DNA of 64,000 nucleotides, from assembly GCF_000018605.1 (NCBI RefSeq), contig NC_010003.1, forward strand, positions 62,001 through 126,000. The letters are read 5' to 3'. Shown here in pieces: positions 59,120 to 63,968 of the stretch. Each line of letters starts with the position of its first letter. Position 1 is the stretch's first letter. Origin of the DNA: Petrotoga mobilis SJ95 (GTDB lineage: Bacteria > Thermotogota > Thermotogae > Petrotogales > Petrotogaceae). A program made the translations under genes and the position numbers. The notes beneath the pieces are model-generated. The model was not told the DNA's origin. It saw only the letters and a list, made by a program, of their open reading frames with translations, and did no database searches.

Positions 59120-60310
59120 TCAACAAGCTATCGCATATTCTTTGGCATTCTTCAGATTAATTGCTGCGTTCAAATCTCTATCTATTTTCGATCCACATTC
59201 TTCGCAAATGTAAACTCTGTCTGATAATCTTAGGTCTTTCTTGATATTACCACAATGAGAACATATTTTACTTGATGGATAAAATCTTGAAACTATCCTC
59301 AATTGAATTCCTAAATGTTTACATTTGTTTTCGAGTCTAATCTTGAAATAGTGGAAATTCTGTTTTGCAATTGCTTTTGATAAATGCCTATTCTTCATCA
59401 TTCCTTTAACATTCAAATCTTCGATAGTGAAATATTCTGGTTTGGTTTTCACCAGTTCACAAACTACTTTATTCACATAGTCATGACGTTTGTTTTTAAG
59501 TTTTTGATGAAGTTTCTGGACCTTTAATACTTGTTTGTCTATATTTTTTGCAGAATTTGTGGCAGTACCTCCTTTCTTTTTATTTTCGTATTTTTTTGAT
59601 AACCGTCTCTGCTCACGCTTAAGTTTTTTTTCGAGTTTTTTAATTTCTTTGCTTTTATTTATATTTTTCTTCTTAATACCGTTACTAGCTACTACAAATT
59701 CTCTTATACCTACATCGATACCAATCCCTTCGGAGAATGATATATTGTCTTGCTTTATTCCTTTTTCAACTGCCGTGAGGCTGTCTTCTTCTACAAGAAC
59801 GCTAACATAATATCTACCTGCTTCAAAAGAAACTGAACCACTTCCAACTTTAGCATTTGTAGGGATGTAGCCTTTTTCTTTTAGTCGAACAAATCCCAAT
59901 GTTGGTATTTTTACTCTATGTCTTTCAATCGTCCAATCAGTTTTATTATTTCTAGGAAAGTAGGCTTTAACGTCATTATTCTTTTTCTTTTTGAATCTAG
60001 GAAATTTTGATTTACCTTTAAAAAACTTTTTAAAAGCTCTTTCACCATTCATAATTGATTGTTTAACAGCTTTACTCGATACATCTTTTATCCAATTGAA
60101 TTCTTGACTGTTCGGTATAAACTCGTTATTTAACCATACTGAAAACTCCATACCCGAAACAAATCGCCTTTCTTTTTCATAAATCTCCTTGTTATGTGCA
60201 ATGTAGAAATTGTATATAAACCTACAAACACCTAGTGTTTTTTTAATTTGTTGTTCTTGTTCAAGCGTCGGATTTATCTCTGTTTTGTAGCTCTTTAGCA
60301 ATCTCATCAT
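59120..60310 (-). CDS. tnpB: RNA-guided nuclease TnpB (IS607 OrfB)
   Basis: A 396-residue TnpB with an N-terminal helix-turn-helix-like domain (MRLLKSYKTEINPT), a wedge/REC region, and a split RuvC with Asp in GIDVGIREFV, Glu in FTIEDLNVKGMM and Asp in DRDLNAAINL. The four-cysteine zinc finger CSHC/CEEC is complete. Nothing in the reading frame is broken. Family members cut DNA matching an omega-RNA guide and help the element persist. It overlaps the 3' remnant of tnpA. Confidence 0.93.
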   Translation of the reverse strand: MMRLLKSYKTEINPTLEQEQQIKKTLGVCRFIYNFYIAHNKEIYEKERRFVSGMEFSVWLNNEFIPNSQEFNWIKDVSSKAVKQSIMNGERAFKKFFKGKSKFPRFKKKKNNDVKAYFPRNNKTDWTIERHRVKIPTLGFVRLKEKGYIPTNAKVGSGSVSFEAGRYYVSVLVEEDSLTAVEKGIKQDNISFSEGIGIDVGIREFVVASNGIKKKNINKSKEIKKLEKKLKREQRRLSKKYENKKKGGTATNSAKNIDKQVLKVQKLHQKLKNKRHDYVNKVVCELVKTKPEYFTIEDLNVKGMMKNRHLSKAIAKQNFHYFKIRLENKCKHLGIQLRIVSRFYPSSKICSHCGNIKKDLRLSDRVYICEECGSKIDRDLNAAINLKNAKEYAIAC

Positions 60311-60862
60311 CGCCCTTTATTTGCTTTTTATACTTTCTAAGTCCGTCGATTTTACACGAAAAAACATGAATAGGGTTGATAGTTTCTCATTGTTTACTAC
60401 AATAATTTCTACACCATTAGATTTTAAAAATCTTTCAAACCAATCGTAACCACTACAAATAAATCTGTCTTTGTGTGCAATTAATATTGTTTTTACTAAA
60501 CCTAACCTACAATTTCCTATTAATTTATTCCACTTTTTACGATTGTAATTTAATCCAGAGCCAATATCTTCAAATATTTCATCAACAATAATTCCTTTTG
60601 CGTTAGTATATTGTGTTAAAAATTCCACTTGATTTTTTAAATCATCTTTCTGGTTATTTGCTAAAACTCTTGCGTAAATTATTGTTTTCCTATGTTTAGA
60701 ATTACTTTCACCTATATAATCTACGTACTGCTTATGAGTATAATAGCGTCAATTGGTTGGACTTCGAAACGCCTTAAGTATCCCTTTTCTGTCCCACCTG
60801 TGCAATGTTTTGACCGATACACCGATCATTTCAGCAAATTCATGTAGTTTATATGCATTCAT
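60261..60862 (-). pseudogene. tnpA: IS607 TnpA serine recombinase, broken
   Basis: From the ATG at 60862 the frame reads a MerR-like HTH (MNAYKLHEFAEMIGVSVKTL to SPTN), then an in-frame TGA at codon 38 (60749-60751) where IS607 proteins have Arg (PTNRRYYT). Past it, the frame continues with YARVLANNQ, in which the nucleophilic Ser of YARVS is Leu, then EDIGSGLNYNRKKWNKLIG and HKDRF. Near 60365-60372 an internal deletion shifts the frame; the expected end (HVFSC, then GLRKYKKQIK) continues in another frame to a stop at 60261. Confidence 0.88.
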
Positions 60863-61296: not shown

Positions 61297-62400
61297 ATGA
61301 AAATAGCGATGATATTTGGAACACGGCCAGAAGCAATAAAAATGGCACCATTATACAAAAAGCTGAAAGAAGAAAATATGGAGGTAAAAGTAATAGCAAC
61401 CGCTCAGCACAGAGAAATGCTCGATCAAGTGTTGAATCTTTTCGAAATAAAACCAGACTACGACTTAAATATAATGACAAAAAATCAAACTCTACCACAA
61501 CTAACTTCAAAACTAGTTACAGAGATAGATAAAATACTAAAAATTGAACCATTCGATTACATACTAGTACAAGGGGATACAACCTCCACTTTTGTTGGAA
61601 GTCTCGCTGCTTTTTACAACAAAATATTTGTTGGGCACGTGGAAGCGGGTTTAAGAACGAACGACATATACAACCCCTTCCCAGAAGAAATGAACAGAAG
61701 ACTAACAGGTACAATTGCAAAGCATCACTTTGCTTCTACCCAAAAGGCAAAAGATAACCTACTAAAAGAAGGTGTAGAAGAAAAAAACATAATAGTAACA
61801 GGGAACACGGTTATAGATGCATTACTATGGGTAAAAGAAAATAAAAACAAAGATATAGAAAAGATAAAAGAAAAGTACAACATAAAGAACAAAAAGTTTA
61901 TCTTAGTAACCATGCATAGAAGGGAGAACTGGGGAAAACCGATAGAAAACGTGATGAAAGCGATAAAAAGGTATCTACACGAAAACGAAGAAATGCATAT
62001 AGTATTTCCAGTTCACTTAAATCCGATAGTGAGAGAAAGTGTGTATAAAATACTTGGGAATGAGGAAAAAGCGATATTGATAGATCCTGTTGAATACTTA
62101 GAATTCATCGCGTTAATGGACGAAAGTCATTACATAATGACAGATTCAGGAGGGATACAAGAAGAAGCACCCACATTGGGCAAACCAACGTTGGTATTAA
62201 GAGAAACAACGGAAAGGCCTGAAGCAATAGAAGCGGGAACAGCAAAATTAATAGGAACACAAGAAGAACAAGTGTATCAAGCCATGAAAGAACTAGAAAC
62301 AGAAAAATATGCTCAAATGAGCAAAGCGAGCAACCCTTTTGGGGATGGCAAGGCATCTCAAAGAATCGTTGAATTTTTGAAAAAAAGATATTACTCTTGA
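61297..62400 (+). CDS. wecB: UDP-N-acetylglucosamine 2-epimerase (non-hydrolysing)
   Basis: A 367-residue GT-B-like epimerase interconverting UDP-GlcNAc and UDP-ManNAc for surface polysaccharides. Motifs are IFGTRPEAIKMAPL at the start, QGDTTSTFVGSLAAFY near 95, VEAGLRT, ERMNRRLT-like EEMNRRLTG, and TDSGGIQEEAPTLGKPTLVLR near 285. The ATG at 61297 follows AAGGAGTCC. Its last 10 bp overlap the end of the convergent kwaB-like gene. Confidence 0.95.
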   Translation: MKIAMIFGTRPEAIKMAPLYKKLKEENMEVKVIATAQHREMLDQVLNLFEIKPDYDLNIMTKNQTLPQLTSKLVTEIDKILKIEPFDYILVQGDTTSTFVGSLAAFYNKIFVGHVEAGLRTNDIYNPFPEEMNRRLTGTIAKHHFASTQKAKDNLLKEGVEEKNIIVTGNTVIDALLWVKENKNKDIEKIKEKYNIKNKKFILVTMHRRENWGKPIENVMKAIKRYLHENEEMHIVFPVHLNPIVRESVYKILGNEEKAILIDPVEYLEFIALMDESHYIMTDSGGIQEEAPTLGKPTLVLRETTERPEAIEAGTAKLIGTQEEQVYQAMKELETEKYAQMSKASNPFGDGKASQRIVEFLKKRYYS

Positions 62401-63392
62401 TAAGGGCTATTTTCACTTGCCACCATTCTATTCCCTGACAACTCAGATCTATAATACAGTTCGTCGTAGAGTTGTAAAAAATCTTTAATAGAAGTCTCTT
62501 CGCCCAAATCAATACATTTATTACCCTCATCTAGTTTAACTTTTAGATTGAAATCATCTATTATCTCCTTAACCTTAGAAAACTCAAATTTCTTATAATT
62601 ACCTTTTTTGATAACCTTATAAAACCTCTTCAAATACAAAGGTTTATTTTTGATTTTCTCACTAAAATAATCGATACTTTTTAATTTAATATCCTTACCA
62701 AATAGATTTCCCTTTTTCTTTATTTCCTCGATAACTTCATCTTTAGCCTCTTCATATTTCTTGTAAAACCCGAAATCTCTTTCAAAATAAGTCAGATTTC
62801 TAATTAAGACGGTATCTCCAACAACCATGTAATCAAAACTATTTTTTGGAATTAAGTAAAACTGTTCCTTTAAAGGTTGAATTTTACGTGCAGTAAGGGC
62901 TAAAATCCTTTTATCTTTAAAGATTTTGGAAGCTGTTAAATATTGAATACCCAACAAAAAATCATTCAACTCATTACTGTACAATTTTACTATCAGTTTG
63001 AACTTCTTAATTGTTTCCAAGTCTTTATTAGAATAATTTTTTATATACTTACCTTCACGAATAATCTCAACAATATCCCCAATATCGCTTACATTCTCTT
63101 TGACATCTTTTAGATACAAAAAGCTCCTATCATCAATGACTGTCTCGTATTCATCTACCTTGTTTGATTCTTTGACGCGTAAATCATTTAAAAACTCGTC
63201 AGTAGAAGTGAGAAAAATTCCCTTGAAAAAAGAGGGATCTTCATTTTTCAACCAAAATATCTGGTTGTTCTCATTTTGGATAAAAACATCCATTGTGAAA
63301 TCTGTTGAAGTAGCGATTAGCTCCCTAAGAGATTCTAAATTTTCTTTTAAAAAGATATTCTTTAAAATCTCATCCCAATTAACTTTATTCAT
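62391..63392 (-). CDS. kwaB: Kiwa anti-phage protein KwaB-like (DUF4868)
   Basis: A 333-residue soluble protein. The region around residues 130-250 (LLGIQYLTASKIFKDKRILA, then NSFDYMVVGDTVLIRNLTYF, then FERDFGF) has the DUF4868 pattern found in KwaB. The remainder is helical and lysine/glutamate rich. It overlaps the preceding four-helix membrane protein gene by 4 nt (ATGA), the kwaA-kwaB order of the Kiwa defence system. In E. coli, Kiwa is a membrane-associated complex acting against infecting phage DNA. The assignment rests on remembered family patterns and gene context. Confidence 0.72.
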   Translation of the reverse strand: MNKVNWDEILKNIFLKENLESLRELIATSTDFTMDVFIQNENNQIFWLKNEDPSFFKGIFLTSTDEFLNDLRVKESNKVDEYETVIDDRSFLYLKDVKENVSDIGDIVEIIREGKYIKNYSNKDLETIKKFKLIVKLYSNELNDFLLGIQYLTASKIFKDKRILALTARKIQPLKEQFYLIPKNSFDYMVVGDTVLIRNLTYFERDFGFYKKYEEAKDEVIEEIKKKGNLFGKDIKLKSIDYFSEKIKNKPLYLKRFYKVIKKGNYKKFEFSKVKEIIDDFNLKVKLDEGNKCIDLGEETSIKDFLQLYDELYYRSELSGNRMVASENSPYQE

Positions 63393-63904
63393 TTCTTGTC
63401 AGCCATCCCCAAATAAAAATCTTTGGAAAACTCTTTAACTTTCATTCCTTCGGTTATTGATTTTGAAATCAACCAAGCGGACCGGATACTCTTTTCACGT
63501 CCGTCCATAAGACAAACTCTGTAAATATTATAGCCAAACAAAGAAAGGACAGGGTTTATAGCTATCAAATCCGTTTTTACATAAATATTGCCTACAATAA
63601 AAACGATTATAGCAAAAGAAATCAATTCTTTTATGCCACCCATATTGATAAAAGGCAAGATATAAACAAAAATATAATCCAGCAGCCTCACATTCTGCGA
63701 TTCTACTTTCTCAAATTTAATGAACTTTTCCTCGGCATTCGTCTTAGCAGAAATAAAAAGAACCAAAGAAACAACAAAAACAAAAATCGAAAAAAAACTA
63801 AAAAATAAGAACAAAACGTTCCCAAAATTATTAATGGCAAAGATAACAAAAAGAGGCAGATACGAAAGCAAAAACAAAAAAGATTTAAACAATGTATTGA
63901 TCAT
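63389..63904 (-). CDS. kwaA: Kiwa anti-phage membrane protein KwaA-like
   Basis: A 171-residue membrane protein with hydrophobic segments at about 6-24, 29-52, 74-88, 92-108 and perhaps 113-128, and a basic C-terminal tail (MADKK). Size, topology and direct coupling to a DUF4868 gene match KwaA of Kiwa systems. The ATG at 63904 follows GGGGAGG. Taken alone the protein would be unassignable; the call depends on its neighbour. Confidence 0.65.
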   Translation of the reverse strand: MINTLFKSFLFLLSYLPLFVIFAINNFGNVLFLFFSFFSIFVFVVSLVLFISAKTNAEEKFIKFEKVESQNVRLLDYIFVYILPFINMGGIKELISFAIIVFIVGNIYVKTDLIAINPVLSLFGYNIYRVCLMDGREKSIRSAWLISKSITEGMKVKEFSKDFYLGMADKK

Positions 63905-63911
63905 ACAAAAA

Positions 63912-63925
63912 CCTCCCCAATGAGG
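63912..63925 (-). promoter_or_regulatory. kwaA ribosome binding site within a small hairpin
   Basis: On the minus strand CCTC (63922-63925) can pair with the GAGG of the ribosome binding site (63912-63915) around ATTGGG. The stem has only four base pairs. Confidence 0.3.
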
Positions 63926-63959: not shown

Positions 63960-63968
63960 ATTATAACA
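63960..63968 (-). promoter_or_regulatory. Candidate -10 of the Kiwa operon
   Basis: The minus strand reads TGTTATAAT, an extended -10, with TATAAT at 63960-63965, about 56 nt before the kwaA start. No convincing -35 is seen. Confidence 0.45.

Follow-up and report, generated by a model that had tools for sequence, protein, structure and literature searches.

Two adjacent genes at positions 62391-63904 of the window (the whole 64,000-nucleotide stretch of Petrotoga mobilis SJ95 DNA analysed here, positions 62001-126000 of its single 2,169,548-base chromosome) very probably make up a complete, apparently functional and divergent two-gene Kiwa system. Both open reading frames lie on the minus strand, exactly where the original prediction had placed them. 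The upstream gene, kwaA (63389..63904), starts with ATG and encodes a 171-aa four-helix membrane protein with a C-terminal beta domain, and the second gene, kwaB (62391..63392), also with an ATG start, encodes a 333-aa DUF4868/KwaB protein. The start of kwaB and the stop of kwaA share a 4-nt ATGA overlap (63389..63392, minus strand), placing the genes next to each other in one operon, and through this overlap the two may be translationally coupled. The kwaA start codon is preceded at 7 nt by GGGGAGG (63912..63918, minus strand), apparently a good Shine-Dalgarno sequence. Farther upstream lies a possible -10 hexamer of a kwaAB promoter, TATAAT (63960..63965, minus strand), without a good -35; it was not called in a promoter scan, whose matches were no more numerous than in shuffled sequences.

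The identity of the second gene product is established by several lines of evidence. The 333-aa protein matches the Pfam family PF16162 (KwaB, DUF4868 family) with an E-value of 5.3e-16 and 59.6 bits, well past the cut-off of 26.3, so the DUF4868 match on which the original prediction hinged is indeed there. Four KwaB models of PADLOC match it as well (2e-6). A phmmer search with the single sequence found no relative in the PDB; a profile built from its relatives did reach solved KwaB (9mrx/9mtn) at 1e-8, aligning over nearly the full length. The AlphaFold model has intermediate confidence (pLDDT 69.7), and in a Foldseek search of the PDB all of its matches with E < 0.001 are KwaB chains (9mtn/9nyu/9mrx; E 3e-9 to 2e-8), at a TM-score of about 0.45 and about 15% identity in the structural alignment. 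We take these structures, as well as those of KwaA (9mrg, 9mrr and 9mrx), to be those of E. coli Kiwa.

For the membrane partner, the Pfam search returned no matching family, and every family that it does match is a KwaA family. Fourteen KwaA models of PADLOC recognize the 171-aa protein, the best at 1.1e-20, and the plain sequence finds solved KwaA (9mrg/9mrr/9mrx) with phmmer at 7.6e-10, a value that falls to 8.9e-22 with a KwaA profile derived from relatives. Its AlphaFold model (pLDDT 79.6) shows four helical regions that span the membrane, followed by a beta domain at the C-terminus, the same arrangement as in solved KwaA, and the only PDB matches of this model with E < 0.001 are KwaA chains (9mrx_A: E 6.4e-10, TM 0.76/0.68, 22% identity). 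In other words, when each protein is modelled singly, Kiwa chains are the only significant structural matches for both, and the kwaA-kwaB identification made by the original prediction holds. One difference from the solved protein that matters is in length, 171 versus 195 aa. The window's KwaA is thus 24 residues shorter; in the profile alignment the solved protein carries about 17 extra residues between TM1 and TM2, and in our model only four residues (26-29) connect helices 1 and 2. Judging from the cytosolic C-terminal domain, this loop would face outward. The short size class of KwaA is not new, since PADLOC already includes KwaA models of 169-173 positions.

Neither protein reaches the equivalog-level NCBIfam cut-offs for Kiwa (NF041622, NF041623). 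KwaA has an E-value of 3.6e-19 but scores 69.3 bits against a cut-off of 100, and KwaB scores 25.9 bits against 200. Such a cut-off decides on naming and says nothing about the features of the system, and so it does not exclude membership in Kiwa. The shortfall does mean that the pair is a divergent member and that equal function is not guaranteed.

To follow the distribution of the pair, 103 genomes of the phylum were considered, of which 13 have KwaB and 12 have KwaA, representing at least three lineages. All six searched members of the window's genus carry Kiwa, and in five of them (G000 and G047-G050) it occupies the same site directly after wecB. At this site uvrA is found upstream of the pair in every genome except G048, where a contig edge intervenes. 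Three of the five then continue with the same glycosyltransferase gene; insertions of other genes precede or replace it in G047 and G050. The proteins encoded at this site are 87-92% identical to those of the window's pair, with dN/dS of 0.18-0.23, and dS of kwaA and kwaB resembles that of wecB, the glycosyltransferase and GH4. Flank-like dS together with these dN/dS values indicates vertical inheritance under purifying selection, the proteins changing faster than their housekeeping neighbours. Kiwa in this genus is a resident locus inherited vertically, and not a recently acquired island gene. In the sixth member of the genus, G051, KwaB is 55% identical and kwaA appears to be disrupted by a frameshift. 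Its pair lies at the start or edge of an exopolysaccharide cluster, as do those of G036 and G037 from another genus. The frameshift in this kwaA (L033:2772-3302) falls after about 28 codons and, the genome being a draft, might stem from misassembly. Upstream of the gene, at about L033:3340-3600, there are also repeats with hairpin-like sequence.

Beyond the genus, the order of the two genes is kept in other members of the family, in Thermosipho, in a Spirochaetes MAG, in Glaciecola and in Wenyingzhuangia, just as it is among the genus relatives, and wherever kwaA was found on an unbroken contig it adjoins a kwaB gene. Chance does not account for the pairing, since homologues with this gene order recur from genome to genome and show purifying selection (dN/dS about 0.2). 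Although long branches were flagged in the KwaB tree, the KwaA and KwaB trees mostly recover the same groups, agreeing on at least three within the phylum. One joins the window's genus to its two nearest Kiwa-bearing genera, another unites G045 and G082 (Thermosipho), and a third places G046 beside Glaciecola and Wenyingzhuangia. Scanning genome contigs with KwaA alone gave nothing, and scanning them with an alignment gave only six loci, a poor yield explained by sequence divergence too fast for that kind of search. Two further observations concern individual genomes. G035 has a second, solitary kwaB (331 aa, L034:6955-7950), with no kwaA detectable within the surrounding 16 kb; the nearest gene upstream, which lies on the other strand, encodes a dynamin-like GTPase. 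In G045, the Kiwa pair is followed about 0.9 kb downstream by a gene for a PemK/MazF-like toxin (L038:5722-6312).

The surroundings of the pair only partly agree with the initial description, which had a surface polysaccharide gene tail-to-tail with kwaB and an IS element next to the pair. The former is convergent as described, and we can specify it as wecB, encoding UDP-GlcNAc 2-epimerase (61297..62400, plus strand; PF02350, 4e-122), a neighbour that is not part of Kiwa; the stop ends of wecB and kwaB overlap by 10 nt (62391-62400). Since its orthologues have 367-368 aa, the real start of wecB is probably near 61297 and not at the GTG that would give a 428-aa protein. The IS element is not adjacent, as wecB intervenes. 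It is an IS607-type remnant (59120-60628) consisting of a TnpB-like 396-aa open reading frame and a truncated 103-aa serine recombinase (Resolvase, PF00239). Three of the four other same-site genomes (G047, G049 and G050) lack the insertion here, and the fourth, G048, has a TnpB-like fragment at the contig edge. We considered the element as a carrier of Kiwa and rejected it, since wecB-kwaB-kwaA is found at the same place without it in those three genomes. The neighbours that were examined (a hydrolase, uvrA, wecB, the glycosyltransferase, GH4, an aldolase, LarA and ETF) also gave no sign of a defence island. The wecB product near Kiwa shares 98.9% amino acid identity with that of a second wecB at 1,384,092, within an exopolysaccharide cluster at 1.38 Mb of the same genome, and the two copies reflect recent duplication or gene conversion. 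No Kiwa was seen in that cluster. A simple reading would have Kiwa leave an exopolysaccharide cluster of this kind together with a copy of wecB.

It could be argued that the genes merely resemble Kiwa, one encoding an unrelated membrane protein and the other a DUF4868 protein, given that the equivalog scores fall short of the cut-offs. However, KwaA independently matches 14 KwaA models and agrees with solved KwaA in sequence, profile and fold, and its gene keeps the company of kwaB on every unbroken contig, so that this reading is in effect refuted. A subtler alternative is that the pair descends from Kiwa and has been recruited in this genus to another membrane-linked role, for example in surface polysaccharide, defence being no longer its main task. 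Such a role would suit the presence of the pair in all six genus members searched, at odds with the patchy distribution usual for defence genes, but most of the phylum lacks the pair, and in G051 kwaA looks frameshifted and so seems dispensable. The location between wecB and, in most cases, a glycosyltransferase, and the adjoining exopolysaccharide cluster in G051, G036 and G037 also favour recruitment, as do the scores of both proteins below the equivalog cut-offs; no functional tie between Kiwa and the convergent wecB was found. Against it, both proteins retain the whole Kiwa architecture, and the dN/dS of kwaA and kwaB, about 0.2, exceeds that of wecB, uvrA and GH4 (0.04-0.09) and is about that of the glycosyltransferase. 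We regard recruitment as improbable.

According to a 2026 review (PMC12904381, citing Zhang et al., Cell 2025), inner-membrane KwaA tetramers of E. coli and the KwaB dimers that they bind make up a fence-like supercomplex; KwaA detects infection at the membrane through a mechanism described as unknown. In the same account, KwaB attaches to DNA as it enters and, without cutting it, stops replication and late transcription. Both parts of such a mechanism, KwaA and KwaB, are present in the window's pair. KwaA here is a four-helix protein of the inner membrane, its beta domain being cytosolic. By homology with the E. coli complex, its tetramer would hold KwaB dimers beneath the membrane and sense phage attack there, and KwaB would attach to phage DNA on its entry and stop both the replication and the late transcription of that DNA, thereby protecting the cell. 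An earlier preprint, to the extent that it is quoted in PMC11514479, linked RecBCD to the action of E. coli Kiwa. In the host genome of the window, unlike in E. coli, no RecC was found, and RecB was not above the cut-off; AddA-like and AddB-like proteins are present instead. With RecC lacking, any cooperation with RecBCD of the E. coli kind must differ, be replaced or be absent. We do not count host RecBCD as a defining property of Kiwa, because the two-gene Kiwa of Streptococcus thermophilus 90730 was active, by measurement, against lactococcal and streptococcal phages (PMC11514479). One may speculate, quite tentatively, that Petrotoga-type Kiwa, resident and vertically kept, has a KwaA which, being nearly loopless between helices 1 and 2 on the outside, senses membrane disturbance within the bilayer and not by means of an external loop, and that it works without RecBCD at raised temperature.

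The suggestion that the pair extends the host range of Kiwa turned out to be weak. Kiwa was already reported by both DefenseFinder and PADLOC in Oceanotoga teriensis, likewise a moderately thermophilic member of Petrotogaceae with a kwaA-kwaB pair (PMC11326445), the only relevant report returned by a literature search combining Kiwa with Thermotog-. The pair of G046, which is perhaps an Oceanotoga, differs in that its KwaA is above the NCBI cut-off and groups with Glaciecola and Wenyingzhuangia; it is not an orthologue of the window's pair. Moreover, Kiwa of the Gram-positive S. thermophilus has been cloned and tested (PMC11514479; PMC12322248), demonstrating activity of a two-gene system outside Proteobacteria. 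The window's pair is a new, divergent Kiwa whose host-range novelty is small, the family being already included. Its value lies elsewhere: it offers a compact Kiwa homologue that is probably heat-stable, its short KwaA could help to locate the infection-sensing part of KwaA, and it reveals a genus that has kept Kiwa over the long term as a resident and not as a passing island gene.
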